A DNA stretch of 34,741 nt from Candidatus Blautia intestinigallinarum (GTDB taxonomy: Bacteria; Bacillota; Clostridia; Lachnospirales; Lachnospiraceae): positions 1 to 34,741 of the forward strand of contig DXIX01000021.1 of the NCBI GenBank assembly GCA_019112635.1. Reading direction: 5' to 3'. The translations under genes and the position numbers were made by a program. The notes under the pieces are model-generated. The model was not told the origin of the DNA. It did not search any database and worked only from the letters and a program-made list of their open reading frames with translations. Shown here one piece after another: positions 5,888-32,976 of this stretch. How positions within the stretch are numbered: position 1 is the first letter of the stretch; every line of letters starts with the position of its first letter.

Positions 5888-6640
5888 TTATTTAAAATAA
5901 GGAATCGGCTCCTCCCAGAGGACTTGCCTTCCTTCCAGAATTCTCCCCGGATTCTCCTCCAGGAGCAGCCAGGGACAGCTCTCCCCGTACTTTCTCTCCA
6001 GAGTACCGGCAAGCAGATCCATCGAGGTAGTCCGCCACACCGGGCTGTGGGCGTCCGAGGCGGCCACTGCCGCCAGGCGATGCCGGAGAATAGAATCGGC
6101 TGTCTGGCGGACTTTTTCCCCGAATCTGCCCAGAATGCTGCCCTTATTCACCTGAATCACCACACCCATCTGCTGCCATTCATAGATATGTGCCCGGATG
6201 TGCTGTACACAGTGATACCGTTCCGGATGAGCAAGCACCGGCAAATATCCGCCCTCCAGAAGGCGGTCCATGACCTGATAAATCTTAAAAGCCGGCACAT
6301 CCATGGGAAACTCCACCAGGACATATCTGGTCTGATTCAAGGTGAGAAGCATCCCTCTTTTTAATTTTTGCACCACATCGTCACTGGCAAAGATCTCCAT
6401 TCCCGCTGCCAGCTGAAGAGGAATTTTCTCCTCCATCAAAAGTCTTTTCAGCCTCTCCAGACACCGGTTATAGGTCTCCACCCAAATATCCTCCCTCTGA
6501 TGGGGAAGATTGCTGTGGGAAGTGGCAGCCAGAACCGTCACCCCGCTGTCCACCGCCATCTGCGCCATTTCCAGCGCATCCTCCCAGGAAGACGCTCCGT
6601 CATCCAATCCTGGCAGAATATGCGTATGCAAATCGATCAT
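5888..6640 (-). CDS. cpsB: CpsB/CapC-type protein-tyrosine phosphatase (PHP fold)
   Basis: This manganese-dependent phosphatase would remove phosphate from the tyrosine-rich tails of the two BY-kinases upstream and so set polysaccharide chain length or output. PHP motifs are clear: MIDLHTHILPGLDDGA at the N-terminus (metal-binding His4 and His6), LAATSHSN, a central LVEFPMD, VLAHPERYH and the C-terminal ASDAHSP. The length of 250 residues fits the family. Its ATG overlaps the stop of the upstream Ig-like gene (ATGA), so the two are translationally coupled. It is the last gene of the long leftward arm. Confidence 0.92.
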   Translation of the reverse strand: MIDLHTHILPGLDDGASSWEDALEMAQMAVDSGVTVLAATSHSNLPHQREDIWVETYNRCLERLKRLLMEEKIPLQLAAGMEIFASDDVVQKLKRGMLLTLNQTRYVLVEFPMDVPAFKIYQVMDRLLEGGYLPVLAHPERYHCVQHIRAHIYEWQQMGVVIQVNKGSILGRFGEKVRQTADSILRHRLAAVAASDAHSPVWRTTSMDLLAGTLERKYGESCPWLLLEENPGRILEGRQVLWEEPIPYFK

Positions 6641-7500
6641 CCTCTGTCTCCTTCCGTCACCGTGACACTTAAGACGGCTTCCGCTGACTGTGTGCCATCC
6701 ACGGAAGTCACTGAATAAACCACCGAGTAGGTCCCAGGAACATACACATTGACCATATTGCTGATCTGAACCCGGTCGGCCACACTGCCAAAATCCGGGT
6801 CCTGGGCTTCCTGCAGATAATCCCAGGGAGAGAACTCCACTCCCTGCAAAATCTCAATCCGGTTCTGCACCAGGGTCAGAGTCAGATCTTTTATTTCCCC
6901 GGAAATCTGTGCCTGAACCACCTCTTCCGTGTGATCCAGATAAGCATTGTCCAGGGAAAAAGTCAACTGATAGATCCCGCTTGAAATCTTCTCCCGCTTC
7001 CAGGTGATCTGATCCGTGATATCCACACCAAAGCCATTCTCGCCTTTGATTTTCCCTTGCCTTTTCAGATTCTCAATCAGATTATTCAAATCCTCTGCGT
7101 CCAGCTCCAGCCTGGAGGGAACTGTGATTTTGGGTCCATCGTAGTCCTTGAGAACCAATGTCCGCTGCGCAGTAGCCTCCTCTCCAGAGGGAGAAAATAC
7201 TGTATAACGGATCTGCTTTTCGCTGCCGCTTCCCTCTCCCGTGATCACTGCGCTGACCTCTCCCGTAAGATCGGTACCATCCTCGTCAGACGCCGTCACA
7301 CCCTCCAGAAGATCCAACTCTCCATTTCCGTCGTAAACCAGCTCCTCCGACGCAAAATGCAGAGAGACTTTCGACTCTTCCGGTTCTCTTTGACTGGAAA
7401 CAGACTGGTTCTTTGTATCCTGTCCGACTGCCACGGCAAAAAGAATCAGCAACAGAAACAGACTGAGAATCCCGGCTCCCCGGAAAAGATTCTGTCTCAT
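6637..7500 (-). CDS. membrane-anchored protein with Ig-like (DUF5011-type) domains
   Basis: The 287-residue protein has one N-terminal hydrophobic segment (ILSLFLLLILFAVAV) and an extracellular beta-rich remainder. At least two Ig-like repeats can be seen. The last ends in VPGTYSVVYSVTSVDGTQSA, the G-T-Y-x-V-x-Y-x-V pattern of DUF5011/HYR-like modules. An earlier one contains EGVTASDEDGTDLTGEV. It overlaps its neighbours by 4 bp on both sides, lying between a BY-kinase and CpsB. A second gene of the same architecture (10383-11204) lies on the other side of the two kinases. The role is unknown; the context suggests an extracytoplasmic adaptor for polysaccharide assembly or attachment. Confidence 0.75.
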   Translation of the reverse strand: MRQNLFRGAGILSLFLLLILFAVAVGQDTKNQSVSSQREPEESKVSLHFASEELVYDGNGELDLLEGVTASDEDGTDLTGEVSAVITGEGSGSEKQIRYTVFSPSGEEATAQRTLVLKDYDGPKITVPSRLELDAEDLNNLIENLKRQGKIKGENGFGVDITDQITWKREKISSGIYQLTFSLDNAYLDHTEEVVQAQISGEIKDLTLTLVQNRIEILQGVEFSPWDYLQEAQDPDFGSVADRVQISNMVNVYVPGTYSVVYSVTSVDGTQSAEAVLSVTVTEGDRG

Positions 7501-8948
7501 CCTTCTCCTTTCTGTTCCCCGTAACCATATTTTCCATAATAGCCGTATCCATACCGGCCATAGCCATAATATCCATATTTTCCTTTGTGCAGAGGCACCC
7601 CGTTAAAAGCATAGCCAAGGATAGGACAGCTGCTCTCTTCCAGCCCGGCAAGACTGTCTAAAATCCTCCGCTTCTGCACGAAATCATGACGGATCACATA
7701 GAGAATTCCATCCGAATATTCCGCCATCAGGCTGGCGTCCTCGAACATCTCCGCAGGAGGAGCGTCCAGGATAATCAGATCGTTTTCCTTTCGAGCCTGC
7801 TCCAGAATCTCCTTAAAAACAGGATGATTCAGAACTCCCGGGACGTTTCGTACCGGCAGATTGCCGCACAGAAAACGAATACCGCTTCTTGGATCCGTCT
7901 CCACCGCCTCTTCCAAAGAAACTTTTCCTTTTACCACACCGAACAGTCCCTGACCTTCTTTTTCCGTCAGCTTTTTCCGGTCAATCTGTTTACGCAGATC
8001 CCCGTCAATGAACAGCACCCTTTTTCCGTGAGCTGCCGCCGCATAAGCCATATTCAAAGCCAGCGTGGATTTTCCTTCGCCGGAAATCGTACTGGTCACC
8101 AGGAGAATTTTCCCGTTCTTCTCCTCCATCTCCCGTTCCGCTTTCAGCTCGATACTCAAGATATTTTCCCTGAATCTCTGGGACAAATCCTTATTAAAAA
8201 TACTCAGAACCTGCTCCTTTGACTTCTTTCTGGCCTTCGACCGGATCTGGGGAATATTTCCCATACAGGTAAGATTTATCACATTTTTCAGCTCATCAGG
8301 CGTCTGCACGGTCTTTCGGAAAAGTGCGTACAGCGCAATCAAAAAGACTCCTGCCGCTGCGCCGAACAACGCTCCCTTCACCACCTTGCGGGTGTAATTG
8401 GGCTGATTATAGGGCTCTGTGGGAACCGTGGGCACATTGATCATATTAAATTTCGTATCGCCGATGACAAACCGGGCCACATCCGGATAGACCCGGATGG
8501 CAGACTCCAGAATCTCTTTGGCATCCTGCGGGTCATTGCTGGTCACAGTCATGGTAATCAGGTTGGAATTTGAAACCGCCTGGGCTGAGATACTGCCATT
8601 GATGCTATTCACACCCAGATCTGCCTCGATGGCATCGTTCAGCAGACTGCTGCTTAAAATATAGGGAAAAGTCTTCGCCAACTGCCCGGCAGTGGTGCTG
8701 TCGTAGTAGAAATTATAGCTTTCCGTCCCTGTGGTCTCACTGGTTCCCCCTGTCATCACCGTAAAGGAAGCTTCGGAGCGGTACATGGGAGTGTAAAACC
8801 TGGAGTTTTTCACATACAGAACCGCACTTCCCAGAAGGGCCAGAATCAGAATCAGCCACCAGAATCTCATCAGTCCCTGAAGAAAATTCCAGAGCAAAGT
8901 CCCAAGGTCAATCTCCAGCTCTTCCCGGTCTTCTCTTCTCTCTTCCAT
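7497..8948 (-). CDS. fused Wzz/CpsC chain-length domain and CpsD-like tyrosine kinase (1)
   Basis: This bacterial tyrosine (BY) kinase controls exopolysaccharide polymerisation and export. A Wzz-type region has membrane segments at about residues 29-46 and 190-210 with an extracellular part between. A cytoplasmic kinase domain follows, with Walker A (STISGEGKSTLA, near residue 290), Walker A' (LFIDGDLRK) and Walker B (LIILDAPP). The C-terminus is a Tyr/Gly tail with about ten tyrosines (starts GKYGYYGYGRYGYG), the likely autophosphorylation cluster and CpsB substrate. Firmicutes usually encode CpsC and CpsD separately; here they are fused as in Proteobacteria. A paralogous fusion lies directly upstream, 3 bp away. 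Confidence 0.9.
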   Translation of the reverse strand: MEERREDREELEIDLGTLLWNFLQGLMRFWWLILILALLGSAVLYVKNSRFYTPMYRSEASFTVMTGGTSETTGTESYNFYYDSTTAGQLAKTFPYILSSSLLNDAIEADLGVNSINGSISAQAVSNSNLITMTVTSNDPQDAKEILESAIRVYPDVARFVIGDTKFNMINVPTVPTEPYNQPNYTRKVVKGALFGAAAGVFLIALYALFRKTVQTPDELKNVINLTCMGNIPQIRSKARKKSKEQVLSIFNKDLSQRFRENILSIELKAEREMEEKNGKILLVTSTISGEGKSTLALNMAYAAAAHGKRVLFIDGDLRKQIDRKKLTEKEGQGLFGVVKGKVSLEEAVETDPRSGIRFLCGNLPVRNVPGVLNHPVFKEILEQARKENDLIILDAPPAEMFEDASLMAEYSDGILYVIRHDFVQKRRILDSLAGLEESSCPILGYAFNGVPLHKGKYGYYGYGRYGYGYYGKYGYGEQKGEG

Positions 8949-8951
8949 GAA

Positions 8952-10370
8952 TTACTCCCTCCCTTCTGCCCGATGCCGGCCACGGTATCCGTAATAACGG
9001 TATTCCTGATTCATATGGAACAACTTCTCCGAATGGAACGCATTCAGGACAAAACCGGAAAAATCCGTGCCGGACTGCTTAATATTGTCCACGGTATCAT
9101 TCACTGCCCGGATATCCGTCCAATCCTGACGTACCACCAAAAGCACGGTATCTGCCGCTTTCAGCAGAAGCTCTGTGTCACTGGCCAGAGACATCGGTGA
9201 CGAATCCAAAACCAGATAATCCACCGAATTTCTTCCGTACTCCACCAGCTTTTGCATATTTTCAGAATCCAGATACTTGGCCGAATTATGTACGCCGCCC
9301 TTTTGAAAAGCCCGGAGAATTCCATACTTTTTCTCATATACCAAAACCTTTTTCAGAGGGATCTTTCCCTCCAGATAATCCGTCAGAGAATGGTTCTCCA
9401 TCTGCGGTCTTCCAAAGATTTTATACTGAGCAGGCTTCTTCAGATCCGTGTCCACCAGAAGCACTTTCCTTCCCTTCTCCGCAAGAGCCAGAGCCACATT
9501 GGAGGCAATGGAAGATTTTCCCTCGTTCTCCGCCACACTGCTGATCATAATCACCTTCTGCTTCTTTCTGCGCATTCTGTGATCCACATGGGTGGCCAGC
9601 TTCCGGATGGCCTCCACGTATCCCACACTCACCAGCGGCGAGGCAATCAAAATGGTCTCATGTCTCTTCTGAAGAAATTCCCGCAGTGTCCGGTTCTTTC
9701 GCTCATAGGGGATGGTTTCCAGGACTCTTCCGTCCAGATTCCTTCTGGCCCCCGCCTTCGTCTTCACCGTAAAGCGCAGCACCGATGCAAGGACAATCAG
9801 GCCGGCTGCCGCCGCTGCTCCTCCCAGCATGGCAAGCTTCTGCAGCCTTGTGATATTCACTCCGTTGGAAGGGGATACCGGCACCGTCGGCTCCTGCACC
9901 ATGCGCAGCACCGCGTTGGAAAACAGGTAATCCGACACCGTATCATAATTCTCGATGGCAGACTGGATAATCAGGTAGGCCTGTCTTGGATTCACCGAAG
10001 TCACTTTCAGGACGATCAGATTCGTCTCCTCAATGATCGAAGAAGAAATCTCCCCTTCGATACTCTCCTGTCCCAGCTCCTGGGCAATCTTTTCCCGAAG
10101 CACGTTGCTGTCGAACACCTCGCTGAAAATCTCAGCCATCTGATTGGCCAAGGTCAGTGAGGAATAGGCACTGCTGTTGTTTCCCCTCGCACTCACCGCC
10201 ATGGTGGCTGTGGCCGTATACTCCGGCACATAGACCAGCCCTTCCGCTCCGGTGACAGCGAACCACCCGGTCACTGCCGCCAGAATAATCACCCACACAT
10301 TCCGGCACAAATCCCGGAGGATACTGAATATGCTGATCTCATCCAGATTAAATTCTTTCCTCTCATCCAT
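8952..10370 (-). CDS. fused Wzz/CpsC chain-length domain and CpsD-like tyrosine kinase (2)
   Basis: This is a second BY-kinase fusion of 472 residues, paralogous to the next gene. It has an N-terminal membrane segment (about 28-50), a Wzz-like extracellular region, a second membrane segment near residue 180-200, and a kinase domain. Walker A reads SSVAENEGKSSIASN (near residue 282), Walker A' reads LLVDTDLKKP with Lys in place of the usual Arg, and Walker B reads YLVLDSSP. The tail is short with only four tyrosines in EYRYYGY and then basic, so its phosphorylation capacity should differ from its partner. The two may form mixed rings. It lies 12 bp after an Ig-like membrane protein gene. Confidence 0.88.
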   Translation of the reverse strand: MDERKEFNLDEISIFSILRDLCRNVWVIILAAVTGWFAVTGAEGLVYVPEYTATATMAVSARGNNSSAYSSLTLANQMAEIFSEVFDSNVLREKIAQELGQESIEGEISSSIIEETNLIVLKVTSVNPRQAYLIIQSAIENYDTVSDYLFSNAVLRMVQEPTVPVSPSNGVNITRLQKLAMLGGAAAAAGLIVLASVLRFTVKTKAGARRNLDGRVLETIPYERKNRTLREFLQKRHETILIASPLVSVGYVEAIRKLATHVDHRMRRKKQKVIMISSVAENEGKSSIASNVALALAEKGRKVLLVDTDLKKPAQYKIFGRPQMENHSLTDYLEGKIPLKKVLVYEKKYGILRAFQKGGVHNSAKYLDSENMQKLVEYGRNSVDYLVLDSSPMSLASDTELLLKAADTVLLVVRQDWTDIRAVNDTVDNIKQSGTDFSGFVLNAFHSEKLFHMNQEYRYYGYRGRHRAEGRE

Positions 10371-10382
10371 GGTATCTCTCCT

Positions 10383-11204
10383 TTATTCCCGCACAATCAC
10401 CGTCAGCCAGGTCTCTCCTTCCAGCCCCTGCTCATTGGTGATCTGATAATGAACCTGATAACAGCCTTCCTCCTGGGTATTCACTCCGGATTCTACCGTG
10501 AGTCCTTCTGTACCCATCACATTTCCGTCTGCGTCTTCCACATCCTCCACATAACTGCCGGGGTCAAAATCGGCTCCCTTTTGAATGTAAACCAGAGGTG
10601 AGGTAAGATTAATCTGACAGGCCGCATTGGAGCCCTCCACCACATGAACCGGAAGGGTTTCCTGCTGAGTATCCCCAAAACTGTTGGTCACTTCCACCTG
10701 AATCGAATATTCCCCCGCCAGCCGGTAATTCACATCACTCTCCACCAGGCGTACCAGGGAAGAAATATTTCCATCAATGATATCATTCGCCCCCACATAA
10801 GTGATGGCGCTGCCGCTGGCCCCTTCCCGGAAAATCAAAGGCTCTGACAAGGTGAACTTGGGAGACTGGTAATCCGTAAACTTTGTCTTTCTGGTCAGAG
10901 TCGCTGACTGATTGGAAGAATCAAAAACCACATAGGTGACATTGCAGACTCCTTTTTCCACGAACTGAGAAAAGCTTCCCACCACAATCTGATCCGTCAG
11001 ATCTCCGTCTTTTGCGTCCTCTGCACGAAGTCCCTCCAGAAGCTGCGCTTCCTCATACTGGGAAGGCACCTCCAGCACCTCCCGGTCACTGGTAATCTTC
11101 GGCCTCGTGGGATCTTCCTCTTGTTTTTCCTTCAGCCAGGACGCCCCGTACAGCCCCAGACTTACAATGAACAGCACAATCACTGCAATTTTGACATACT
11201 TCAT
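10383..11204 (-). CDS. membrane-anchored protein with DUF5011/Ig-like repeats
   Basis: The 273-residue protein has an N-terminal membrane anchor (IAVIVLFIVSLGLYGASWL) and an extracytoplasmic region of Ig-like repeats. Each repeat shows a D-G-(D/N)-L/I-(T/S) turn, as in EDAKDGDLTDQIVV and NDIIDGNISSLV, followed by a V-x-Y or G-x-Y-x-V strand (GVCNVTYVVFDSSNQ, AGEYSIQVEVTNSFG), typical of DUF5011. AAGGGG precedes the ATG. It heads the polysaccharide-control part of the operon, 66 bp after the ABC exporter, and mirrors the architecture of the gene at 6637-7500. Function is not established. Confidence 0.75.
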   Translation of the reverse strand: MKYVKIAVIVLFIVSLGLYGASWLKEKQEEDPTRPKITSDREVLEVPSQYEEAQLLEGLRAEDAKDGDLTDQIVVGSFSQFVEKGVCNVTYVVFDSSNQSATLTRKTKFTDYQSPKFTLSEPLIFREGASGSAITYVGANDIIDGNISSLVRLVESDVNYRLAGEYSIQVEVTNSFGDTQQETLPVHVVEGSNAACQINLTSPLVYIQKGADFDPGSYVEDVEDADGNVMGTEGLTVESGVNTQEEGCYQVHYQITNEQGLEGETWLTVIVRE

Positions 11205-11270: not shown

Positions 11271-13031
11271 TCAGAACGCTTCCAGGAATTCCTGAATTCC
11301 CTTCTCGTCCACTTCCAGGATTCGGCTGTCCTGTATCTTATAAACCCTGCTGCACAGGGAAAATACACTCGGTCTGTGGGCTGCCACGATCACCGTCCGG
11401 AACGGTTCCTTTCGAATGATATTCCGCAGCACCCGCCGCTCCGTTCCCACATCCAGGGCACTGGTTGCCTCATCCAAAATCATCACCGGAGCATCTGCCA
11501 GAAGCGCCCGTGCGATGGAAAGCCTCTGTTTCTGTCCTTCCGAAAAACGCTGTCCCTGCTCTCTTACCTGGGTGTCAATGCCTTCTTCCAGTTTCTCCAC
11601 AAATTCCCAGGCACAGGAGGCTTTCAATGCATGTATGATCTCCTCATCCGTGGCCTTTGGCTTTACCATCCGCATATTCTCCGCAATCGTCCCGGAGAAC
11701 AGAGTATTTCCCTGGGGAATATAGCTGAACAGACATCGGGTGGAGGCTGATACCTCCAGGGAATCCCCCTTCGGATTGCCCACGCGGATCTTTCCTTTCT
11801 GTGGATGGAACAGCCCCAGCAGAAGCCGCAGTGTGGTGGTCTTCCCCTGTCCCGAGGGACCAATCAAAGCCACAATCTCTCCTGGCTGTGCGCAAAAATC
11901 CGCATTCTGATAGACCCATTTTCCATCCTGATATCGAAAATCCACATCCTCCATCCGCACATAAACCCCTGCCTCTTTTGCCCTCGCCTTCATGGCCAAA
12001 GCTTCCTCTTGGTTCACCAGGGACTCCCTGGGAAGCTCCACCACCTCCATGACACGCTCCGCACTGACACAGGCACGGACCGCTGAGGGAAGGAGGCTTA
12101 GGATCGAGCTAAAAGATCCTCTCAGGGAACCTGCCATAGATACGAACATGGTCATGGTTCCGTAACTGATCGCTCCCTGCCAGAGCCGGTATACGGCAAA
12201 TCCATAACAGGCATAACCAATCACCTGCCCCACCAGGGAAGTGATAATCGTGCTGATGGACTGAAATTTATTCTGACGGGAGGCCACATCCATGGTCTCC
12301 TTCTGAATCTCATAGAACTTCTTCGTCACCTGATCCAACATTCCAAAAGCTTTGATAAACTGCAGATTCTGGAAAGTCTCCTGATCAAACACCGTCCGGT
12401 CACTGGACAGCTCCTGGTTCTCCCGCTGGAACTGGCGCATTTTCCGGGTGGTATAACGGGAAGTAAAAAAAGAAACCGGAGCTCCTGCCAGCGCAATCAC
12501 AGCCATGGCCGGATCGTTGCGGATCATCACGATAAACGCCCCGCCGAAACTGACGAGAGCCGTCACCGCATTGGGAAGAAAAGTGAGCACACTGTTGGCC
12601 ACCGATCCCGCGTCTCCATTCACCCGGTAAAGCAGATCACCGGAACGGTATCCCGCCAGAGCCTCCCAATCCGTGTGCAGTACCTGCTCATAGATATCTG
12701 CCCGGATCTCATTGGTCACCTTCTGGCGGACCCGAAAGGAGATCCTCATCTTCACCGCGTTGACAAAAATCTGCCCCACACCCACGCCCACGTAAGTGGC
12801 TGCCACCTGGAGAATTCCGCTGGAACTTACCCCCGTCACTGCATCCACCAGATCCCGGCTCACCATGGAAGTGCCCAGCCCCAGGATAGAACCCGACGCC
12901 CCCAGAAGCACATAGATGACAATCATCAGCCAGAACCGCCGGACATATATGTACATCCAGAGCATCTCAGAAATCAATTGTTTTAACCTTCCCTCACGAA
13001 TTCGGGTGAGGATATGCTTCAGTTTCTTCAT
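11271..13031 (-). CDS. ABC exporter with fused membrane and ATPase domains
   Basis: This half-transporter would work as a homodimer exporting a small molecule or peptide. About six membrane segments occupy residues 30-310, followed by an ATPase domain with Walker A GPSGQGKTTT (near 390), signature SEGQKQRLSIARA (near 497) and Walker B VMILDEATSALD (near 517). There is no N-terminal C39 peptidase, so any leader cleavage must happen elsewhere. I chose the ATG at 13031 because GAGGAG lies directly upstream; earlier in-frame starts at 13055 and 13064 have no ribosome site. Its position just after the PqqD/radical SAM/kinase genes makes it the candidate exporter of their product, but a role with the polysaccharide genes that follow is also possible. 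Confidence 0.88.
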   Translation of the reverse strand: MKKLKHILTRIREGRLKQLISEMLWMYIYVRRFWLMIVIYVLLGASGSILGLGTSMVSRDLVDAVTGVSSSGILQVAATYVGVGVGQIFVNAVKMRISFRVRQKVTNEIRADIYEQVLHTDWEALAGYRSGDLLYRVNGDAGSVANSVLTFLPNAVTALVSFGGAFIVMIRNDPAMAVIALAGAPVSFFTSRYTTRKMRQFQRENQELSSDRTVFDQETFQNLQFIKAFGMLDQVTKKFYEIQKETMDVASRQNKFQSISTIITSLVGQVIGYACYGFAVYRLWQGAISYGTMTMFVSMAGSLRGSFSSILSLLPSAVRACVSAERVMEVVELPRESLVNQEEALAMKARAKEAGVYVRMEDVDFRYQDGKWVYQNADFCAQPGEIVALIGPSGQGKTTTLRLLLGLFHPQKGKIRVGNPKGDSLEVSASTRCLFSYIPQGNTLFSGTIAENMRMVKPKATDEEIIHALKASCAWEFVEKLEEGIDTQVREQGQRFSEGQKQRLSIARALLADAPVMILDEATSALDVGTERRVLRNIIRKEPFRTVIVAAHRPSVFSLCSRVYKIQDSRILEVDEKGIQEFLEAF

Positions 13032-13110
13032 GCCGCTCCTCACAGGCACATACATGCCCGCCAAGTCTTTCGTCTGCTAAAACAGTAGTACTCAAAACTA
13101 TCTTTTTTCA

Positions 13111-13163
13111 AAAAAATTTCATTCCTACGCCCGTCCTATCCCCAGACGCGGGAATGAAATTTT
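13111..13163 (-). terminator. hairpin terminator or attenuator between kinase and ABC exporter genes
   Basis: Directly after the kinase stop codon, AAATTTCATTCC and GGAATGAAATTT form a perfect 12-bp outer stem, extended inside by partly paired GCGTC/GACGGGC, and followed on the minus strand by a run of T. It should stop or reduce transcription from the peptide module into the ABC exporter and polysaccharide-control genes. No obvious strong promoter is visible in the 80 bp between the hairpin and the exporter start. Confidence 0.75.
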
Positions 13164-13954
13164 TAATTGCCAAATAAAGTTTCCTCCGTCAAGCGCACTG
13201 CCTCCTCATCTGGACGGCAGGATAATTCATAGACTGGGATGGCGCTCAGCAGATGGTCTAAGGTCTCCAGACACAACTCCATGCCATTTTCCAGCCACTG
13301 GGGATAAAACACGTTGTTGGATACCGCCGTCACCTTCTCAAAGCCAGTCAGCTCCCGGATGGAATTCTCCGATTCCTGCTTCAGGACAATCATGGCATGA
13401 ACGGGCACACTGGTATTCTCACAGTAGGGAGAAGAACCATGCCAGGGAGTTCCCCAGCCAAGGAAGTTCTCTTCCGTTTCCTGGACAAACACAATATCAC
13501 CGTTGATGATCAACGCATCCCGGTATTTGTTCCAAAGTTCCGCCTGGGTAGTCTTGCCAATGCCGGAAGGGCCGAGGAACATGAGACCACAGCCTTTATG
13601 TTCGATTAGGGAACTGTGAAAAATTATTCCTTTTTTCTTTGTTACATGAGTACAAAACATATCTAGAAGAAAGTTATCTGCTTCCTCCCCTTTCTCGGAT
13701 ATAATCAGCCTGCCTTCTGTCCATTCTTTGTTAACAGCAAAAATGCTCAAATGGTTTATTAGTAATTGAAAATTAATACCATCAAGTTGTACGAATGCTG
13801 TACCATAAAAAACAGGGGCATTGAAACTGGCATACGCAGAAAAAAGAGGGGGAACCTGCGTCTTATATACTTGATATTTTTCCCAACAATATCCCAGCAA
13901 TAAATTATTTTCTATTTTTATATTATAATTTGCAACCTTATAAACACTCATCAT
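13163..13954 (-). CDS. HPr-kinase-like protein of a peptide-modification cluster
   Basis: The 263-residue protein has a P-loop FLGPSGIGKTTQAELW near residue 130, followed by INGDIVFV and GWGTPWHGS, as in HPr kinase/phosphorylase-like kinases found in RiPP clusters (lasso-peptide kinases, ScmC of the SynChlorMet cassette). True HprK is longer and has a different N-terminal domain, so a metabolic HPr kinase is unlikely. The known relatives phosphorylate a serine of the precursor peptide. The ATG overlaps the stop of the 119-aa gene (ATGA). The first about 115 codons are AT-rich (28% and 22% GC on two hand-counted 60-base lines, 13741-13800 and 13861-13920), while the part from the P-loop onward has the GC content of the neighbours, suggesting a recombination junction just before the P-loop. 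Confidence 0.78.
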   Translation of the reverse strand: MMSVYKVANYNIKIENNLLLGYCWEKYQVYKTQVPPLFSAYASFNAPVFYGTAFVQLDGINFQLLINHLSIFAVNKEWTEGRLIISEKGEEADNFLLDMFCTHVTKKKGIIFHSSLIEHKGCGLMFLGPSGIGKTTQAELWNKYRDALIINGDIVFVQETEENFLGWGTPWHGSSPYCENTSVPVHAMIVLKQESENSIRELTGFEKVTAVSNNVFYPQWLENGMELCLETLDHLLSAIPVYELSCRPDEEAVRLTEETLFGN

Positions 13955-14310
13955 GCCTCTGAATGATCAACATCCATACATCCACTATCTACTCCGACTG
14001 CGTTGTAAAAATTGTCCCATCCCACTAATGTATAATTTTGTGCCCAATGAGAAAACACATCATTGAGATTTCCATTTTCTGCTACATAGTCAGCCACATC
14101 ATCATTCGAATCAAACTCCGGATACATATTAGTCGGACTTCCCTCTATCTCATGCATCCACCCTCGACCGGAAAATCCGCTTTCATTCCACATATAATAA
14201 ATTCCTCGAACAATAGAAGCTCCCGAGGGAATCTCATTACTAAATGTAGAAACGGAATATGCACTTACTTCTTCATAAGCATATCGATTCTCTACATAAT
14301 ATCCTCCCAT
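13951..14310 (-). CDS. unrecognised 119-aa acidic, aromatic-rich protein; candidate peptide substrate
   Basis: I do not recognise this protein. It has no signal peptide or membrane segment, is rich in Tyr, Trp, Asn, Ser and Asp, and has one Cys near the C-terminus (DSGCMDVDHSEA). The ATG at 14310 is preferred: AAGGGG lies 8 bp upstream, whereas the ATG at 14319 lies almost on that site. Its start lies within the 3' end of the radical SAM gene and its stop overlaps the kinase start, so it is coupled to both. Position and size suggest it is the substrate of the radical SAM enzyme and kinase, but it is long for a RiPP precursor and could instead be a small partner protein. The whole gene is AT-rich compared with the radical SAM gene upstream. 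Confidence 0.6.
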   Translation of the reverse strand: MGGYYVENRYAYEEVSAYSVSTFSNEIPSGASIVRGIYYMWNESGFSGRGWMHEIEGSPTNMYPEFDSNDDVADYVAENGNLNDVFSHWAQNYTLVGWDNFYNAVGVDSGCMDVDHSEA

Positions 14311-15383
14311 ATATTCCATTCCCCTTTCTCATCGTCATAATATTTCTTCACTTTGTTGCAAAACTCCTCTGTCACCCGGTGGGGGCTGCCGCACTCGGCG
14401 GCCAGAGTTCCGGCGCATTTCATACACGCCTTCTGTACTTTACAGGTCTTACATTCCTCAGGCCAGTCCAAAGCCTCCTCATACTGAATCAGCTCCTGCC
14501 AGGCCTGTGAAAACGCCCGGTCACGGACGGAGAGATCCGGCTCATTCATAAAGCTGCAGAACCGCATCATCCCGTTCCAGGTCACCCAGTACCCCAGACG
14601 GTAGTCCTTACAGTAGGTACAGGGCTTTCGTTCTATATTCACCGGCACCTTCTCAAGACGGTACCGGATCTCTTCTTTCTTCTGTTGTTCCAGTTTCTCT
14701 TCCACCCGAACCATCCTCGCCTGGCTGTCCGGATTCCGCACAGTGGCTTTCACGCCGCCAGTGGCCATCCAGGGAAGCCGGTTCTGATATGCGTAATAGG
14801 CCATCCTCGGCACATCCTCCAGATTCTGGCGGATCACCGTGCTGATAAGCTGAACAGGAATTTTAAGCTCTCTCAGTGTCCGGATTCCTCTATCCACTCT
14901 GGAAAATCCGTCTTTGACACGGCACACCTGCTCATACACCTCATCATTTGATCCATAGAGGGTGATCTTCACAGCCCTGGGTGGGTACTCGGCCAGAAGA
15001 TCAGCCATGTCCCCCTGGATCAGAGAAGCGTTTGTCTGAAGCGTGATAAAAAATCCCATCTGTGTCAGTTCCTTCCAGATTTCCGGAAAATCCGGATGAA
15101 CCAGAGGTTCGCCGCCGGTAACACACAGCCAGACAGTTCCCGCCTCTTTCGCCGCATGGGCCGTCTGGATCCATTCCTTCCCGGTCATCTCCCTGCCGTA
15201 CCAGGGGATCTGCTTCTCATCAAGGTGCACATAGCACATACGGCAGTTGAAATTACAGCGGGGCGTCAGTTCGAAAGTTCCTGAGATGGGAATGGCATCC
15301 TGATATGCTTTCTCCCAGACTGACTTATAGAAGGGATCCAGCCATTCCATCCGCCGGCAGGCCGGCTCAAATTCATAACTCAT
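14292..15383 (-). CDS. radical SAM/SPASM peptide-modifying enzyme
   Basis: This enzyme would reduce S-adenosylmethionine to a 5'-deoxyadenosyl radical and install a crosslink or other change on a peptide. The radical SAM cluster motif is CNFNCRMC (Cys about 43, 47 and 50 of 363), followed by the SAM-binding VTGGEPLVHPDF. The C-terminal SPASM region has Cys pairs for auxiliary iron-sulfur clusters: CTYC, then FCSF, then CKTCKVQKACMKC and ECG, with a final FC. The ATG at 15383 has AGGTGA at 5 bp; an in-frame GTG at 15392 overlaps the PqqD stop. Its partner is the PqqD-like gene immediately upstream. SPASM enzymes with a separate PqqD partner typically act on ribosomal peptides; the chemistry cannot be told from sequence. 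Confidence 0.9.
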   Translation of the reverse strand: MSYEFEPACRRMEWLDPFYKSVWEKAYQDAIPISGTFELTPRCNFNCRMCYVHLDEKQIPWYGREMTGKEWIQTAHAAKEAGTVWLCVTGGEPLVHPDFPEIWKELTQMGFFITLQTNASLIQGDMADLLAEYPPRAVKITLYGSNDEVYEQVCRVKDGFSRVDRGIRTLRELKIPVQLISTVIRQNLEDVPRMAYYAYQNRLPWMATGGVKATVRNPDSQARMVRVEEKLEQQKKEEIRYRLEKVPVNIERKPCTYCKDYRLGYWVTWNGMMRFCSFMNEPDLSVRDRAFSQAWQELIQYEEALDWPEECKTCKVQKACMKCAGTLAAECGSPHRVTEEFCNKVKKYYDDEKGEWNIWEDIM

Positions 15384-15388
15384 GGCTG

Positions 15389-15706
15389 TCACCTTTTCTC
15401 GGGCATCCGGACGAAGACTTTCCCCCGGACAACACCGTCATCTAAGATATTGTTATCGGCCAGCGTCTTCAGGAATTTTTCAATATCCGCTGCCGCTTTC
15501 TCCCTGGTCACTCCTTCATAATGCTCCAGAATTCTCTCCACCAAGTCTTCTTTCTCAAACTCATGATCCTTCATATACTCCCACAGATAAGCCGCGGAAG
15601 ACGATATGTAGACGATGGAAGTCACTTCCCGGACCCGCTTTCCCGTAGGGACGATCACATATTGTCCTGCGACTTCTCTTAGCATCAGTCCGTCTTTTAA
15701 TTTCAT
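15389..15706 (-). CDS. PqqD-family peptide chaperone (RiPP recognition element)
   Basis: The 105-residue protein has the PqqD winged-helix pattern. An N-terminal beta hairpin (GLMLREVAGQYVIVPTG) is followed by the marker ISSSAAYLWEYM and a helical C-terminus (LVERILEHYEGVTREKAA, then FLKTLADNNILDD). Such proteins bind the leader part of a precursor peptide and present it to a radical SAM enzyme. It overlaps the histidine kinase stop by 4 bp and the radical SAM gene follows within a few bases, so the three are likely translated together. The overlap ties the modification genes directly to the sensor kinase. Confidence 0.88.
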   Translation of the reverse strand: MKLKDGLMLREVAGQYVIVPTGKRVREVTSIVYISSSAAYLWEYMKDHEFEKEDLVERILEHYEGVTREKAAADIEKFLKTLADNNILDDGVVRGKVFVRMPEKR

Positions 15707-17055
15707 GTTCCTTCCTCCTCCATATTCAGTACCACGCGCAGAATGAATTTTTCTTCTTCACTCCATGCTTCCACACTTCCCTGGTACTTTCTCGCAATCA
15801 TCTCAATGCTTTCCATTCCATAGCTTTTGACAATCTTTCTCAATGTCCCGGCTGGAATACTGTTCTCTATTTTTATCAGGATACTTTTCTTAAACTGCCT
15901 CACAATCACCCGGATCACCGGGCTGGATCCGCTGCACTTTCCGCAGGCATTCAGCGCATTCTCCATGGCATTGCCAAAGAGAACAGTCATATCCACCATA
16001 TCAAAAGGATAGGTCTCTTTGACCTGAATACTGCACTTGGTATGAATTCCATTGTTCTCCGCCTGAATCACATAATACCGGAGTATCCCATCCAGACAGG
16101 GATTGCCGCAGATCTTCTTTTTCTCCATTTCTTCTGTCTCATAGAGATAATTTCCAATATAATCCTGCAGCTTTTTCACCTCTCCATCCTGAGCGAGAGT
16201 GTTCATAGTCCGCAGATGAAGACGCAGATTGTGCCGGCTGCGTTTTTCCTTTTCGATGCCGTCACACACCCACTTATACTGCTGTTCATAGGAACTTAAT
16301 CTGGAACGCATATCCTCTTTTTCTTTTTCCAAAATCAGGCAGACAAAATAGATAAAATACGCCAGAAGATCGCATACGATAAAGCAGATCATCCAGACAC
16401 TCAGATAGATCTTGGAACTGATTGTGGAAACTTGCATCGACAGATTCGCTTCCATCTGCATGGCGATAATGATCAACCCCAGAATCGCCACAGAACAAGA
16501 AGTAATAAAATTCAGCGTTTTCTTATTTCCCTGGACAAGCTCCTGGACATTTCCGTACCGCAGGAAACGGTAAATCCACGGAAAGCTCAAAAGTATCACA
16601 ATTGTATAAGTCACAAGATCTCTGACCGAATAAGGCGAGAACATTCCTATTGGCATAGGCCTCATGAATTTCACCGTAATCTTGTTCGCGATATAGATTA
16701 AGATCCCATACTGGACAACCAGCATATACAAAAGAGTCTGCCCTCGGGTTCCTTTCTGCAGCCTCAGAAAATAGACAAGAGTCATACCTGCCAGTCCGGC
16801 GGCGAAGATCAGATTTCCCAGATTCATCAGTTCTCCCCAGCTGACTCCCTGGCTGCGCAGGATTCCCAGATAGCAGGAACCTCCGGCATAAAAGGCAGCC
16901 ACAGCTGCACACAGGAGAATCAGAAACCGTCTCTTCTCATAGCGCAAAGAATCCGGCTGAAGCGGCAGGTATGCCAGAAAGATCATTGGAAAACTCTGAA
17001 GCATATAGCCGCAAAATTGAATCAGTACATATGTACACACAACTTGCTCATTCAT
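15703..17055 (-). CDS. GHKL-domain sensor histidine kinase (AgrC-like)
   Basis: This 450-residue membrane sensor has about six hydrophobic segments in the first 235 residues and a cytoplasmic kinase. The likely phosphoacceptor His is in RSRHNLRLHLRTM. The N box is LFGNAMENALNAC. The later ATP-lid region is short (SYGMESIEMIARKYQG), as in the GHKL/HPK10 class that includes AgrC and other peptide-pheromone receptors. It lies 10 bp after its response regulator and overlaps the PqqD gene by 4 bp. The class often senses secreted peptides, and the nearby peptide-modification and export genes suggest that the product of those genes could be its signal; that link is inference. Confidence 0.88.
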   Translation of the reverse strand: MNEQVVCTYVLIQFCGYMLQSFPMIFLAYLPLQPDSLRYEKRRFLILLCAAVAAFYAGGSCYLGILRSQGVSWGELMNLGNLIFAAGLAGMTLVYFLRLQKGTRGQTLLYMLVVQYGILIYIANKITVKFMRPMPIGMFSPYSVRDLVTYTIVILLSFPWIYRFLRYGNVQELVQGNKKTLNFITSCSVAILGLIIIAMQMEANLSMQVSTISSKIYLSVWMICFIVCDLLAYFIYFVCLILEKEKEDMRSRLSSYEQQYKWVCDGIEKEKRSRHNLRLHLRTMNTLAQDGEVKKLQDYIGNYLYETEEMEKKKICGNPCLDGILRYYVIQAENNGIHTKCSIQVKETYPFDMVDMTVLFGNAMENALNACGKCSGSSPVIRVIVRQFKKSILIKIENSIPAGTLRKIVKSYGMESIEMIARKYQGSVEAWSEEEKFILRVVLNMEEEGT

Positions 17056-17065
17056 CGGTCAACTT

Positions 17066-17767
17066 TTATTCCTCCATATAATGTTTGAAAATATAGTCAT
17101 TATATTTCCGTCGGTTCTCTGCCCGCTGCCTCCGACTGAGCATAAATACCATCCCCTCCACTTCACAGGAATCTGTGTTCATCCGCTCCACAGCCTCCAT
17201 ATTCACAATCACACCACGGTTGATGCGCAAAAAGCGGTCATCCAGATTTGTCATAAACATCTGGAGGCTTTCCCGAACCTTAATTACAGCTCCCGTCGCC
17301 ATGTGGATGTACAGATAATTGTGCATGCTTTCTATATAAGTAATCTTCTGGTAAGGAACCTCCTGTTCCTGCTTGCTGCTTACATCATAAATCGTCAATT
17401 TGGAAACTACTTTTTTCTGAAAACGTTCCTTTATTTTCCAAAGCAGTTCTTTCTGATAAGGCTTAACCAGATAATAAAAAGCATTCAACTCGAATGCTTC
17501 CGGCCCAAACTCTCTGCTGATACTGACAAGGACAATCTCCATCTCCGGGTGGAACTCCCGTATTTTCTTTCCTGCCTCAATGCCTCCTATTTTCTGCATA
17601 AAAATATCCAAAAACACCAGATCATAGGTCTCACCGACGTCGATCTGAGCCAACAAATCCTGCCCGTCATCGAATAAAAAGAACTCCGTACCCGGCCAGA
17701 CAATTTTCAACAATTCACACAATTCTATGCGGTCATTTTTATTATCATCACACACTGCAATTCTCAT
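17066..17767 (-). CDS. LytTR-family response regulator
   Basis: This 233-residue regulator has an N-terminal receiver domain with the acidic pair D7/D8 (VCDDNKND), phosphoacceptor D54 (LVFLDIFMQ) and K102 (YYLVKPY). A C-terminal LytTR DNA-binding domain follows (ITYIESMHNYLYIHMATG, then FLRINRGVIVNMEAVERM). It is the first gene of the leftward arm and the partner of the GHKL kinase. LytTR proteins bind paired direct repeats about two helical turns apart. Two such pairs (20-bp period) lie upstream, one beside this gene's own promoter and one before the polysaccharide operon. Confidence 0.92.
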   Translation of the reverse strand: MRIAVCDDNKNDRIELCELLKIVWPGTEFFLFDDGQDLLAQIDVGETYDLVFLDIFMQKIGGIEAGKKIREFHPEMEIVLVSISREFGPEAFELNAFYYLVKPYQKELLWKIKERFQKKVVSKLTIYDVSSKQEQEVPYQKITYIESMHNYLYIHMATGAVIKVRESLQMFMTNLDDRFLRINRGVIVNMEAVERMNTDSCEVEGMVFMLSRRQRAENRRKYNDYIFKHYMEE

Positions 17768-17783
17768 AATTTACCTCTTTATC

Positions 17784-17846
17784 ATTATATATGTGCCATT
17801 TTTTTCCTTCCAGTACCAGTTATCCCAATTCGTTACCAGTTATCCC
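17784..17846 (-). promoter_or_regulatory. promoter of the leftward arm with paired LytTR-like repeats
   Basis: The 13-bp sequence TACCAGTTATCCC occurs twice exactly, at 17814-17826 and 17834-17846, 20 bp start to start. On the minus strand the pair is immediately followed by a weak -35 (TGGAAG, 17812-17807), a 17-bp spacer and a perfect TATAAT (17789-17784). The ACCAGTTAT core resembles the LytTR half-site seen for AgrA-like regulators. A weak -35 beside a repeat pair fits an activated promoter and autoregulation of the two-component system. Confidence 0.7.
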
Positions 17847-17941: not shown

Positions 17942-18020
17942 TGCCACTTATCCCATTTTTTTACCAGTTGTCCCATTTTTCCCTGACTCTATGGACTTTT
18001 CCGGAAATTCACGCTATAGT
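17942..18020 (+). promoter_or_regulatory. promoter of the LCP gene with a second pair of LytTR-like repeats
   Basis: Two tandem 20-bp units lie at 17941-17960 and 17961-17980; the second reads TTACCAGTTGTCCCATTTTT and the first differs from it at three positions. Their 13-bp cores (17942-17954 and 17962-17974) match the repeat pair on the other arm. Downstream are TGGACT (17992-17997), a 17-bp spacer and TATAGT (18015-18020), then GGAGG before the ATG at 18056. The repeats would sit about 50-85 bp upstream of the start point. The AT-rich remainder of the divergent spacer (17847-17941) shows nothing else. Confidence 0.68.
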
Positions 18021-18055: not shown

Positions 18056-19507
18056 ATGTCGAGTCAGCAGAAAAATCACCATGAGAAGAAAATCCGGATT
18101 CCTGGAATTCTTCTCGTCGTATTTATGTTTTTTATTCTGATCTTTTTCGTATCCGTTGTCTTTTCCACTCAGATGCTGCCGGCCGCTCTGTTGGCCATCG
18201 TCTGTGCGGGATGTCTGATTTCCTTGCTTCTCACTTATTTTCTCACCAGGGATCTACGGCACAGAATTCGATTTGTTCTGGGTGTAGTCTGGAGTCTTCT
18301 CTGTCTGGTCCTATGTCTGTTCGCCGGTTACTATGTCCGCCAGACTCAGGATACCCTCCAGAAAGTTTCCTCTCCCCGTGTACAGAATTCCATCATCTCT
18401 TTCTATGTGAAACAGGAAGATCCCGCCGAAAACCTTTCGGATGCTGCCGATTACACCTTTGGCATCTTAAAGACCCAGGACCGGAGCAATACCGATGAAA
18501 CCCTGAACCAGGTCAGCGCCGAGCAGAATCTCACCTTACAGACCCTGGAATTTGACGGACTGACGCAGCTGGCTGACGCTGTCCGGGACGGCCAGATTCA
18601 GGGCATGGTTCTGAACCAGGCTTATCTGGATCTCTATGAAGAACTGGAGGGATACGAGACATTTCCAGAAGAAATCCGCATTCTCTCCACCCAGCAGGTG
18701 GAACAGGTGGTGGAAAATGTGCTTTCCCAGGAGGATTCTTCCGATTCTGTGATCAACATCTACATCAGTGGAAGCGATACCCGGGACAATACGCTCACCA
18801 GCCTGACCCGCAGCGATGTGAACATCATCGCCAGTGTCAACACAGATACCGGAGAGGTGCTTCTTCTGTCCACGCCAAGAGACTATTACATACCTCTGTC
18901 CATCTCCGGCGGAGTGCCGGACAAGCTGACCCATGCGGGAATCTATGGTGTTCAGGTGAGTATGGATACCCTCTCCATGCTCTATGACATTTCCATCGAT
19001 TACTATTTCAAGGTGAATTTCACCGGATTCGTGGATATCATCAACGCTCTGGGGAACATTGAAGTTCAGTCTGACTATGAATTTGACGCTGGCGGATATC
19101 ATTTTACCGCAGGCACCAATGTGCTGGACGGAGACGCCGCCCTGGCCTTTTGCCGGGAACGTTACTCCTTCAGCAGCGGAGACCGGCAGAGAGGCCGCAA
19201 CCAGATGGCCGTAATCAAAGGGATCATCCAGAAAGCAGCCAGCCCTGCTATTCTGACTGACTACACTTCCATTCTGGAAGGTGTACAGAACTGTATCGAT
19301 ACCAATATCCCTTATGATCTGATGGCGGAGCTGGTACGCCAGCAGCTCTCACGGAAAACCACCTGGAACGTCACCACCTACAGTGTCGATGGAACAGGAG
19401 ACAACCAGGTACCTTATTCCATGAGCTCCCGTGTCTATGTGATGGTTCCTGACATGGCCACCGTGGAACACGCAAAAGAACTTCTGGCCCAGGTCGCCGG
19501 TAACTGA
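18056..19507 (+). CDS. LytR-CpsA-Psr (LCP) family cell-wall glycopolymer ligase
   Basis: LCP enzymes move lipid-linked polysaccharide from undecaprenyl phosphate to peptidoglycan outside the membrane. The first 105 residues hold about three hydrophobic segments. An acidic accessory region follows (about 115-250), then the LCP domain with DVNIIASVNTDTGEVLLLS, the conserved PRDYYIPL (Arg near 274), GVPDKLTHAG and CRERYSFSSGDRQRGRNQ, which carry the phosphate-binding Arg residues. At 483 residues it is normal. TTGGAGG precedes the ATG. It is the first gene of the rightward polysaccharide arm. A strong terminator follows, so it may be expressed more than the genes behind it. Confidence 0.92.
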   Translation: MSSQQKNHHEKKIRIPGILLVVFMFFILIFFVSVVFSTQMLPAALLAIVCAGCLISLLLTYFLTRDLRHRIRFVLGVVWSLLCLVLCLFAGYYVRQTQDTLQKVSSPRVQNSIISFYVKQEDPAENLSDAADYTFGILKTQDRSNTDETLNQVSAEQNLTLQTLEFDGLTQLADAVRDGQIQGMVLNQAYLDLYEELEGYETFPEEIRILSTQQVEQVVENVLSQEDSSDSVINIYISGSDTRDNTLTSLTRSDVNIIASVNTDTGEVLLLSTPRDYYIPLSISGGVPDKLTHAGIYGVQVSMDTLSMLYDISIDYYFKVNFTGFVDIINALGNIEVQSDYEFDAGGYHFTAGTNVLDGDAALAFCRERYSFSSGDRQRGRNQMAVIKGIIQKAASPAILTDYTSILEGVQNCIDTNIPYDLMAELVRQQLSRKTTWNVTTYSVDGTGDNQVPYSMSSRVYVMVPDMATVEHAKELLAQVAGN

Positions 19508-31168: not shown

Positions 31169-31200
31169 CACCCCAGACACAGCCGGCAGCTCCACAGAAA

Positions 31201-31250
31201 AACAGGCCGGACAGGAAGTGAATCAAAACACCTCCTGCCCGGCTGTTTTT
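31201..31250 (+). terminator. intrinsic terminator at the end of the polysaccharide arm
   Basis: ACAGGCCGGACAGGAAGTG pairs with CACCTCCTGCCCGGCTGT over about 16 positions with three mismatches or bulges and an AATCAAAA loop, followed by TTTTT. Composition drops to AT-rich DNA immediately afterwards; 31251-31465 shows no gene. Confidence 0.85.
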
Positions 31251-31465
31251 ATTATTCGAAGTTTATTTATTTCTGAATTTAAGAAAACACATATGTTTTA
31301 TACGACAGCTTCTATCAAAAAGAACGCTCAGATTTGCAAATCAATCATCACACCACCTATATATGTTTGAACGTTCATTTGAAATGAAATATTGTAGTGG
31401 TTTTACTAACTCCATAATTAAATAACTCTATTATCTTTACCATAATTATCTCCACCTCTTTGTAA

Positions 31466-31766
31466 TCAATCAAAAATCCTCGTAATATCCCTATACCGAT
31501 TTACTACACGGTAAATCTCTGCATATTCTTCTCCCACTTTGTAAATGATCACATAATTCTCCCAAATCGCATACTTGTAATTTGTTCGGAAGCTGACTCT
31601 TTTTGGAGAGATCTGCAACTATCCCCGGAAACATTTGGATATTCTCAAATTTACCATAAATTTCTTTAATCGTCTTTGCAGCATATTCTGCATTATCCTC
31701 GGCAATATAATCACGAATTTCTTTCAAATCCGTTGCAACTAATGGATTAATTCATAATTTCAGCAT
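31466..31766 (-). pseudogene. RelE/ParE-family toxin, broken by a stop and a frameshift
   Basis: RelE/ParE toxins are small ribosome- or gyrase-targeting proteins paired with an antitoxin. Read from the ATG at 31766 the frame meets TGA at codon 5, then continues as NPLVATDLKEIRDYIAEDN and YGKFENIQMFPGI, a clear RelE/ParE N-terminal half. At the A-run in ADLSKK the frame is off by one base: the other frame continues as RVSFRTNYKYAIWENYVIIY and RVVNRYRDITRIFD, the family C-terminus, ending at 31466. Both lesions should abolish the toxin. It lies 3 bp after the antitoxin gene, the normal order. Confidence 0.85.
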
Positions 31767-31769
31767 AAT

Positions 31770-32018
31770 TTACTCCCCCACAAGTGCTTTTAATTCGTCC
31801 AAACTCAGCCAACCTTCACCGCCTTTGACTACCTCCTCTGCCTCCTGCAATTTCATTAAGAGCTTTTTCTCTGCAAGCTCACGCTCATAATCTTCTATAT
31901 CAAGCACAACAAACCGCCCTCTGCCATTCTTGGTAAGATATACCGGTTCACCTTTGCAACATTTTTTCAGGACTTCATTATAATTTCTCAAATCAGATAC
32001 TGGTAAAATATTAGGCAT
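31770..32018 (-). CDS. Phd/YefM-family antitoxin
   Basis: This 82-residue protein has the Phd/YefM DNA-binding start ILPVSDLRNYNEVLKKCCKG, EPVYLTKNGRGRFVVLDIED, and a charged C-terminal toxin-binding helix. AAGGAG stands before the ATG. It would repress its own operon and neutralise the adjacent toxin. The gene is intact while its toxin is decayed, so it may persist as an orphan or protect against related toxins elsewhere. Confidence 0.88.
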   Translation of the reverse strand: MPNILPVSDLRNYNEVLKKCCKGEPVYLTKNGRGRFVVLDIEDYERELAEKKLLMKLQEAEEVVKGGEGWLSLDELKALVGE

Positions 32019-32198
32019 ATTCTTTCATCTCCTTCGCTAATTTCTATTTGTTTCCAATACATGCTTCATTTTATTTAAAAATGCATATGTTATAATCTAA
32101 AATGCACTATTCTCATAATAGACATTAACATCGCACACAAAAGATACTCCTTTTTCTACCGTTGCCAATGCAATAACAGTATCTTTTCCAATTCAAAT

Positions 32199-32444
32199 TT
32201 ATAGAACCCCTCTTCGTCTTGCTTCATCTCCACTATTCTCATTTACCCTTGTTTTTCCTTTTACTGAATAAACGCAAATTGGAAATAACGAAAAATCAAC
32301 TGCTCTAGTTTCCTCATTAAATTCTCTTTGGGCAGTTTCTAAAATTGTTTCGTTTTTCTCCCTATGTCCTCCTGGTACTTCATAGGTATTCCGTTCTTTA
32401 TGTTTACACAAAACCCATCTGCCCTTCGTTCTTGACTGCTGCAT
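32199..32444 (-). pseudogene. NUDIX hydrolase fragment
   Basis: NUDIX enzymes hydrolyse nucleoside diphosphates linked to another group. The 81-residue frame contains a recognisable Nudix box, GGHREKNETILETAQREFNE with EET following, preceded by WVLCKHKERNTYEVPGG. The usual length is 130-160 residues. A stop lies directly before the ATG, no ribosome site is seen, and after VYSVKGKTRV the sequence ends in an unrelated Arg-rich tail, so both ends appear lost. The Gly of the box end is replaced by Arg (EETRA). It is best read as a remnant. Confidence 0.7.
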
Positions 32445-32456
32445 TTATTTCCGTTC

Positions 32457-32876: not shown

Positions 32877-32976
32877 CCTGTATTCGAAGTCAAACTTCTA
32901 TGACAAACAATTCTTCCTACCATAACAATTGTAACACAACCACTGCACCCACCTCAACACTATTGACAACAAGTAT

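Follow-up and report, generated by a model that had tools for sequence, protein, structure and literature searches.

What do genes of the kind that modify ribosomally made peptides do inside an exopolysaccharide (EPS) locus? The question is raised by a stretch of 34,741 nucleotides from Candidatus Blautia intestinigallinarum (contig DXIX01000021.1), referred to as the window at its full length. In it a PqqD-like protein, a radical SAM enzyme (rSAM), a small protein termed X and an HPr-kinase-like protein (HPrK) are encoded in a row between a two-component system and an ABC exporter followed by EPS genes. The reading favored here, at a probability of roughly 0.6, is that this module of the EPS locus makes X as a modified and exported small protein resembling a ribosomally synthesized and post-translationally modified peptide (RiPP), that X is exchanged as part of a cassette, and that the module is under two-component control. 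The exchange cassette and a substrate family having a Cys near the C-terminus are the new elements.

Gene order and its conservation

The module comprises the following features.

17066..17767, minus strand: LytTR response regulator, first operon gene (Pfam Response_reg 5.4e-15, LytTR 2.7e-12)
15703..17055, minus strand: GHKL (AgrC-like) sensor kinase (Pfam HATPase_c_5 1.3e-12)
15389..15706, minus strand: PqqD-like protein, RiPP recognition element (Pfam PqqD 1.5e-12)
14292..15392, minus strand: rSAM with a SPASM-like Cys set (Pfam Radical_SAM 2.3e-27)
13951..14319, minus strand: protein X, the candidate substrate; 122 aa, or 119 if translation begins at the ATG at 14310
13163..13954, minus strand: HPrK/PEPCK-fold kinase-like protein, HPrK (Pfam Hpr_kinase_C and predicted fold)
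13114..13162, minus strand: hairpin or terminator-like inverted repeat in the HPrK-ABC spacer; arms of 12 bp, then TTTTG
11271..13064, minus strand: ABC exporter, fused membrane and ATPase domains (Pfam ABC_membrane, ABC_tran)

The initial annotation had proposed this order, with X at 119 aa and tyrosine kinases after the exporter, and had described the joins as tight. Both descriptions hold: LytTR and GHKL are separated by 10 bp, GHKL/PqqD, PqqD/rSAM and X/HPrK overlap by 4 bp each, and rSAM and X overlap by 28 bp, or by 19 bp with X started at ATG 14310. Its family calls fit the Pfam matches, except that the kinase is weak by sequence and the Pfam SPASM model has no match. The 98-bp spacer between HPrK and ABC contains the hairpin, whose arms are similar in the related loci L023, L024 and L026, imperfect in L021 and partly different in L029; none was seen in the remaining related loci.

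Scanning species genomes with the rSAM gave 31 related loci (L numbers), the best segment being 48-90% identical. Their records bear the names of several Lachnospiraceae genera and some Oscillospiraceae/Ruminococcaceae, and, going by record names, many appear to come from poultry gut. PqqD precedes rSAM in 31/31 loci. The slot between rSAM and HPrK holds a single open reading frame (ORF) of 95-145 aa (overlapping frames discounted) in each of the 28 loci whose contig extends that far and likewise in the window, making 29. Among loci not cut short, HPrK follows the slot in 28/28, ABC lies downstream in 27/27 and Ig-like and tyrosine kinase genes are found in 25/27; CpsB is present in 23/23. The order PqqD-rSAM-X-HPrK-ABC-EPS is thus kept wherever the contig is long enough, except for EPS in two loci, and the co-occurrence with polysaccharide genes for which the initial annotation had proposed a check is borne out. 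The corresponding EPS genes of the window are these.

10383..11204, minus strand: surface Ig-like protein of the EPS locus (PF16403 2.1e-17)
8952..10370, minus strand: Wzz and bacterial tyrosine kinase (PF02706; TIGR01007 2.6e-34)
7497..8948, minus strand: second tyrosine-kinase-like EPS protein (PF13614 2.4e-11)
6637..7500, minus strand: second Ig-like protein (PF16403 2.7e-10)
5888..6640, minus strand: CpsB/CapC phosphatase (PF19567 2.1e-60)

The distribution of the module is patchy. An rSAM match at E<=1e-50 was found in 26 of 397 sampled genomes of the window's family, 11 of the 26 at 56% identity or more (own genome included), and at E<=1e-80 in 12 of 58 genomes of the L024 genus; 36 other genomes of the window's genus yielded no kinase match better than E 3e-20. 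The rSAM search of viral contigs gave no match, and matches on plasmids are all below 60% identity, those listed being mostly PqqE.

Protein X as the candidate substrate

Protein X is encoded by a small ORF that adjoins the rSAM gene and has a leader-like conserved N-terminus, as expected of a RiPP precursor. The pairwise identity of X proteins has a median of 24%, yet each of the 29 aligned sequences has a Cys among its last 11 residues (Cys114 in the window), and Cys makes up 0.24% of residues outside the last 11. In window numbering, Gly48 is invariant, and Trp44, Trp54 and Trp92 are conserved at 90% or more. The constant slot, together with strong divergence in which the Cys near the C-terminus is nevertheless kept, indicates that X is likely the substrate of the rSAM/PqqD pair, and its single invariant Cys is compatible with a thioether of the sactipeptide or ranthipeptide type.

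The X profile matches 203 proteins at E<=1e-3; like the recurrence of the gene order in 31 loci, this is more than chance would give. X belongs to no Pfam or NCBIfam family at cut-offs, and neither these models nor solved structures searched by sequence give more than isolated weak matches. The AlphaFold model of the window X has a mean pLDDT of 62.8, with residues 1-32 and 111-122 under 50 and a moderately confident middle; its appearance suggests a leader, a body and a modifiable tail, but falls short of proof. The window's own genome (75.5% complete) contains no second copy of X at E<=10, and the X type of L023 is rare, having one other relative.

More distant loci provide further observations. 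In L081, L084, L101 and L105, whose rSAMs share 40-49% identity with the query, the ORF is similar and likewise carries a Cys close to its end. L083, L102, L103 and L104 encode other short proteins near rSAM genes, ending CLA or CRA, with a common leader-like start and the Cys third from the C-terminus. Close to the module, a small S24/S26-peptidase-like protein is encoded at L083:981-1457 (Pfam scores just below cut-offs), and similar proteins at L082:7510-8049 and L094:12598-13107 were recognized by eye only, with no Pfam match; a role as leader peptidase is possible in these three loci.

Exchange of X together with part of the kinase

HPrK evolves at two speeds, its N-terminal ~100 residues (HPrK_N) having a median identity of 22% and the remainder (HPrK_C) 73%. 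The variable part adjoins X, and base composition sets the two apart as a unit.

13640..14319, minus strand: AT-rich cassette of X and HPrK_N (the low-end border is an approximation by analogy with L023/L024)

The cassette includes the first ~100-105 codons of HPrK. In the window the GC content is 39% for X and 33% for HPrK_N, compared with 53% for rSAM and 50% for HPrK_C; mean values across loci are 49.5 (rSAM), 40.5 (X), 35.3 (HPrK_N), 52.4 (HPrK_C) and 53.7 (ABC). GC is lower in HPrK_N than in HPrK_C in 28/28 loci and lower in X than in rSAM in 27/29.

Two Mediterraneibacter loci, L023 and L024, are 94-98% identical over 18 kb but unrelated in the cassette. By blastn, identity is 93.7% over L023 1824-11076, there is no match to 11703, and identity then resumes at 93.6-98.0% to the end; two further alignment gaps that flank the ABC gene look intergenic. 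On the left the match breaks off at the start codon of X, and on the right it resumes at the FYTHAV codons in HPrK. At the protein level identities are 97% for rSAM, 24% for X, 18% for HPrK_N, 98% for HPrK_C and 99% for ABC. With borders this sharp, the sequences show a cassette exchange and not drift. A second such pair was found neither among all pairs of the 31 loci, where no other pair is close enough to test, nor in the 58 genomes of the L024 genus. Whole modules seem to be exchanged too, since in L101 and L105 the ABC gene (59% identical over a partial frame in the former, 73-76% over two frames in the latter) stands beside far more divergent PqqD and rSAM (41-46%).

Diversity of this kind could alternatively mean that X and HPrK_N are weakly constrained and drift fast within a module that has a constant part in EPS regulation or assembly, the cassette carrying no meaning for specificity. 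Relaxed constraint would explain both the low GC and the low identity, and X of similar type does occur beside unrelated HPrK_N. Drift does not, however, account for the sharply bordered replacement in L023/L024 or for the retention in X of the invariant Cys and the conserved Trp and Gly positions. Further evidence comes from 136 X proteins split at an I[PS]SG motif: in the largest set with a common leader, which has 34 proteins, leader identity is 94.5% and core identity 71.1%, a core diversity that is inflated because the database was clustered at 90% identity and close pairs were thereby removed. The variable positions in this group are particular ones, mostly polar, between fixed framework sites. 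Judged from protein sequences, the pattern would fit diversifying selection or loose surface constraint alike, and mutagenesis of the diversity-generating retroelement type seems unlikely, given variable sites that include E, Q and K and the codon rule of such elements, though no search for a reverse transcriptase was made. Drift alone is thus an unlikely account.

Equally, X might be a secreted bacteriocin-like antagonist whose diversity stems from competition and whose placement in the EPS operon provides co-regulated release. Genes for an rSAM and an exporter resemble bacteriocin loci, the closest solved rSAM is SkfB, the maturase of the sporulation killing factor, and both the high diversity of X and the cassette exchange would be expected. 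Against this, among the genes compared, L023 and L024 vary only in X and HPrK_N, so that no separate immunity gene follows X; no bacteriocin family is found among the Pfam and NCBIfam matches of the 29 X proteins; and the place inside the EPS operon is constant. We consider an antagonist doubtful.

Predicted enzymes and exporter

The PqqD protein and rSAM are encoded side by side, as in RiPP systems of the rSAM/PqqD type, and NCBIfam models of lasso PqqD proteins match the PqqD-like protein weakly. The closest solved rSAMs by sequence (PDB chains) are SkfB (1.7e-11) and PqqE (4.2e-9). Compared with the SPASM Cys consensus, the Cys spacing is SPASM-like (Cys counts in 30 aligned rSAMs), yet the Pfam SPASM model has no match at E<=0.1.

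For HPrK, the Hpr_kinase_C match (E 4.4e-4) scores 20.3 bits, below the cut-off of 33.3, and the HPr(Ser) kinase model TIGR00679 gives 17.8 of 240 bits. The AlphaFold model has a pLDDT of 93.2, with PEPCK as best Foldseek match (2.4e-6) and a best HprK/P match of 1.4e-5. H113, the P-loop residues and D153 are invariant in 28 sequences, so that the fold, P-loop and conserved His and Asp of the HPrK/PEPCK group are all found. The kinase assignment is therefore weak by sequence but backed by the predicted fold. In L025:11393-12225 and L029:2655-3454 the 5' part of HPrK does not share one open frame with the remainder, reflecting either an assembly error or a broken gene.

Regulation, and whether X is sensed

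LytTR regulators bind paired direct repeats. Two such pairs lie between the module operon and a divergent polysaccharide operon, in which the LytR-CpsA-Psr (LCP) gene is followed on the plus strand by epimerase, glycosyltransferase and flippase genes.

17815..17846: direct-repeat pair, LytTR-operator-like, 20-bp period, upstream of the LytTR operon
17943..17974: second direct-repeat pair, LytTR-operator-like, 20-bp period, upstream of the divergent LCP gene
18056..19507, plus strand: LCP gene, which opens the divergent polysaccharide operon (PF03816 8.4e-34)

A TATAAT lies between the first pair and the LytTR start codon, and a promoter-like match precedes LCP at 17992-18020, such matches being not above chance. 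The window contains three repeat pairs, compared with 0.1 per shuffled window (20 mononucleotide shuffles). The third pair, weaker and with an 18-bp period, lies inside the GHKL gene, indicating that not every repeat match is an operator. Of 13 loci inspected, five (L021, L023, L024, L026 and L051, of which L023 and L024 are near-identical) have a 20-bp-period pair no more than ~215 bp ahead of the LytTR gene. At that threshold no pair is found near the LytTR gene in the other eight, among which L027 and L028 have less than 175 bp of preceding sequence, L097 lacks an assigned start and L099 duplicates L025. Since LytTR regulators bind repeats of this kind and such repeats precede both the operon and LCP, the two-component system likely controls the module operon and perhaps also the divergent EPS operon.

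The initial annotation had gone further, proposing peptide quorum sensing in which X, once processed and exported, is detected by the GHKL kinase and so controls polysaccharide production. The RiPP-like module is indeed tied to the EPS locus; it is the role of modified X as ligand that finds no support. In its favor, in the window the module operon is joined to the sensor gene and operator-like repeats stand at both divergent promoters, LytTR/GHKL precedes PqqD in 10 of the 26 loci that extend 2.2 kb or more upstream, and streptococcal capsule is, according to an excerpt of PMC13361665, affected by peptide signaling through Rgg/SHP. Of these 26 loci, however, eight have another histidine kinase/response regulator type (in L047 only the regulator is seen), two a LytTR match alone and six none of the tested types. 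The L023 and L024 sensors differ at 5 of 483 residues despite unrelated X (24% identity), which leaves sensing of X unsupported: in this one pair, the covariation of sensor and peptide used as criterion for agr-type systems is not seen. No AgrB-like gene is present among the 12 window operon genes scanned. Quorum sensing through X is thus quite improbable, although the sensor may respond to an invariant part of X. At L040:9010-9513, upstream of PqqD, a NusG-family protein (PF02357 7.9e-12) suggests antitermination control of that EPS locus.

Comparison with known systems

In lasso peptide clusters (paeninodin, pseudomycoidin), according to an excerpt of PMC8498205, the ribosomal peptide is the target of an HPr-kinase homologue, and pseudomycoidin also has a nucleotidyltransferase that attaches hexoses to the phosphate; an excerpt of PMC4289311 also places HPr kinase in lasso clusters of anaerobes. 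The module shares with lasso-kinase clusters the HPrK-like kinase, the PqqD-like chaperone and, in three loci, a nucleotidyltransferase (PF14907) adjoining PqqD, identified by Pfam in L043 and by similarity in L041 and L045. It differs in having an rSAM, in the lack of Pfam matches to a lasso cyclase or B2 protease among the 12 window operon genes scanned, and in a substrate of ~120 aa with a Cys in the C-terminal region, Ser being terminal in 6/29 X, the window X not among them. Because no cyclase is seen and terminal Ser is this infrequent, a lasso system was rejected; a tailoring logic may nevertheless be common to both. With phosphoglycosylated lasso peptides as a model, X might even be linked covalently to EPS, for example via a phosphate placed by HPrK, giving a protein-tagged polysaccharide whose identity is switched by the cassette in a serotype-like manner, but this reading is a long shot.

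There is some resemblance to SynChlorMet cassettes, since in NCBIfam the kinase weakly matches ScmC and the rSAM weakly matches ScmE/ScmF. This assignment was also rejected, with scores far under the cut-offs (ScmC 20.9 of 125 bits, ScmE 68.8 and ScmF 69.2 of 400), and the EPS context and the X family are different here. Maturases of the sactipeptide/SkfB and PqqE types include the closest solved rSAMs, and PqqE likewise has a PqqD partner; the substrate here is far longer with one invariant Cys, and the HPrK partner and EPS location are different. HPrK resembles kinases of the HPr-kinase/PEPCK fold in predicted fold and in its His, P-loop and Asp residues, and differs in its score under the HPr(Ser) kinase cut-off and its variable N-terminal half. 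Among the matches listed from a search of open-license literature, titles and abstract beginnings describe no system with this gene set.

Proposed function and evidence against it

In the favored reading, PqqD would bind the leader-like conserved stretch at the N-terminus of X, and rSAM would modify X, with the invariant C-terminal Cys or its vicinity as the most likely site. HPrK probably phosphorylates X, its variable N-terminal half being the likely substrate-facing lobe. Export by the ABC protein would probably bring the product to the cell surface, and X would act there with the polysaccharide machinery. The two-component system would switch on the module, and perhaps the divergent LCP/EPS operon too. 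X and the N-terminal half of the kinase would be exchanged or diversified as a cassette, in the manner of a surface-exposed or specificity-determining part.

Several observations weigh against this proposal. The modification, phosphorylation and export of X, like its regulation and surface role, are predictions from sequence. Ser, Thr and Tyr are all lacking after the last Cys in 7 of 29 X, so that the tail has no constant phosphorylation site, and the X model is without structural match. The Pfam matches of the ABC exporter include no peptidase domain, and a transporter without a C39 domain could serve a lipid-linked sugar instead. L031 and L044 carry the module, but EPS genes were not found downstream. 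The clean exchange is a single pair, L023/L024, both of them metagenome assemblies, and their first 1.8 kb are also unaligned. Within the group of the window (W), L024, L027 and L040, X is 58-64% identical while the kinase halves are only 16-26% identical, so that X type and HPrK_N do not simply go together; the covariation of rSAM with X is as strong as that of HPrK_N (rho 0.35), and HPrK_N covaries slightly with HPrK_C (0.23, p 0.026). In L082 (rSAM 41%) the slot ORF is 93 aa without a C-terminal Cys, and L086, L087, L088, L092 and L094 carry other short proteins with an N-terminal motif approximating NEYVA(A)C. These five loci have one or more rSAM, mostly HPrK-like and PqqD-like genes and in several cases EPS genes, and their short proteins are possibly a second precursor class.

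Other features of the window

ORFs of 60 aa or more were listed for the window, and an Rfam scan gave nothing at gathering scores. A tyrosine-recombinase-like protein (33167-34186, by eye from the translation) lies at the window end, and Pfam-confirmed recombinases of the phage-integrase type are found upstream of PqqD in L022, L030 and L043; a link of such recombinases to phase variation or exchange of EPS loci is possible. About 2 kb (31200-33150) are free of long ORFs and include a toxin-antitoxin-like pair of short frames recognized by eye (31491-31751 and 31770-32024). A 22-bp tandem repeat occupies 32975-33062, and an open frame at 34508-34741 resembles, by eye, part of an IS3-type transposase.

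Significance

If the favored reading is correct, the polysaccharide loci of gut Lachnospiraceae and their relatives would contain, as a recurrent and overlooked component, a RiPP-type maturation kit. X would represent a new substrate class, ~120 aa long with a Cys near the C-terminus, exchangeable together with part of its tailoring kinase, and the exchanged cassettes would constitute a natural experiment on how such kinases read their substrates. The module would also provide a testable link from ribosomal peptides to capsule diversity, phage exposure or host contact.

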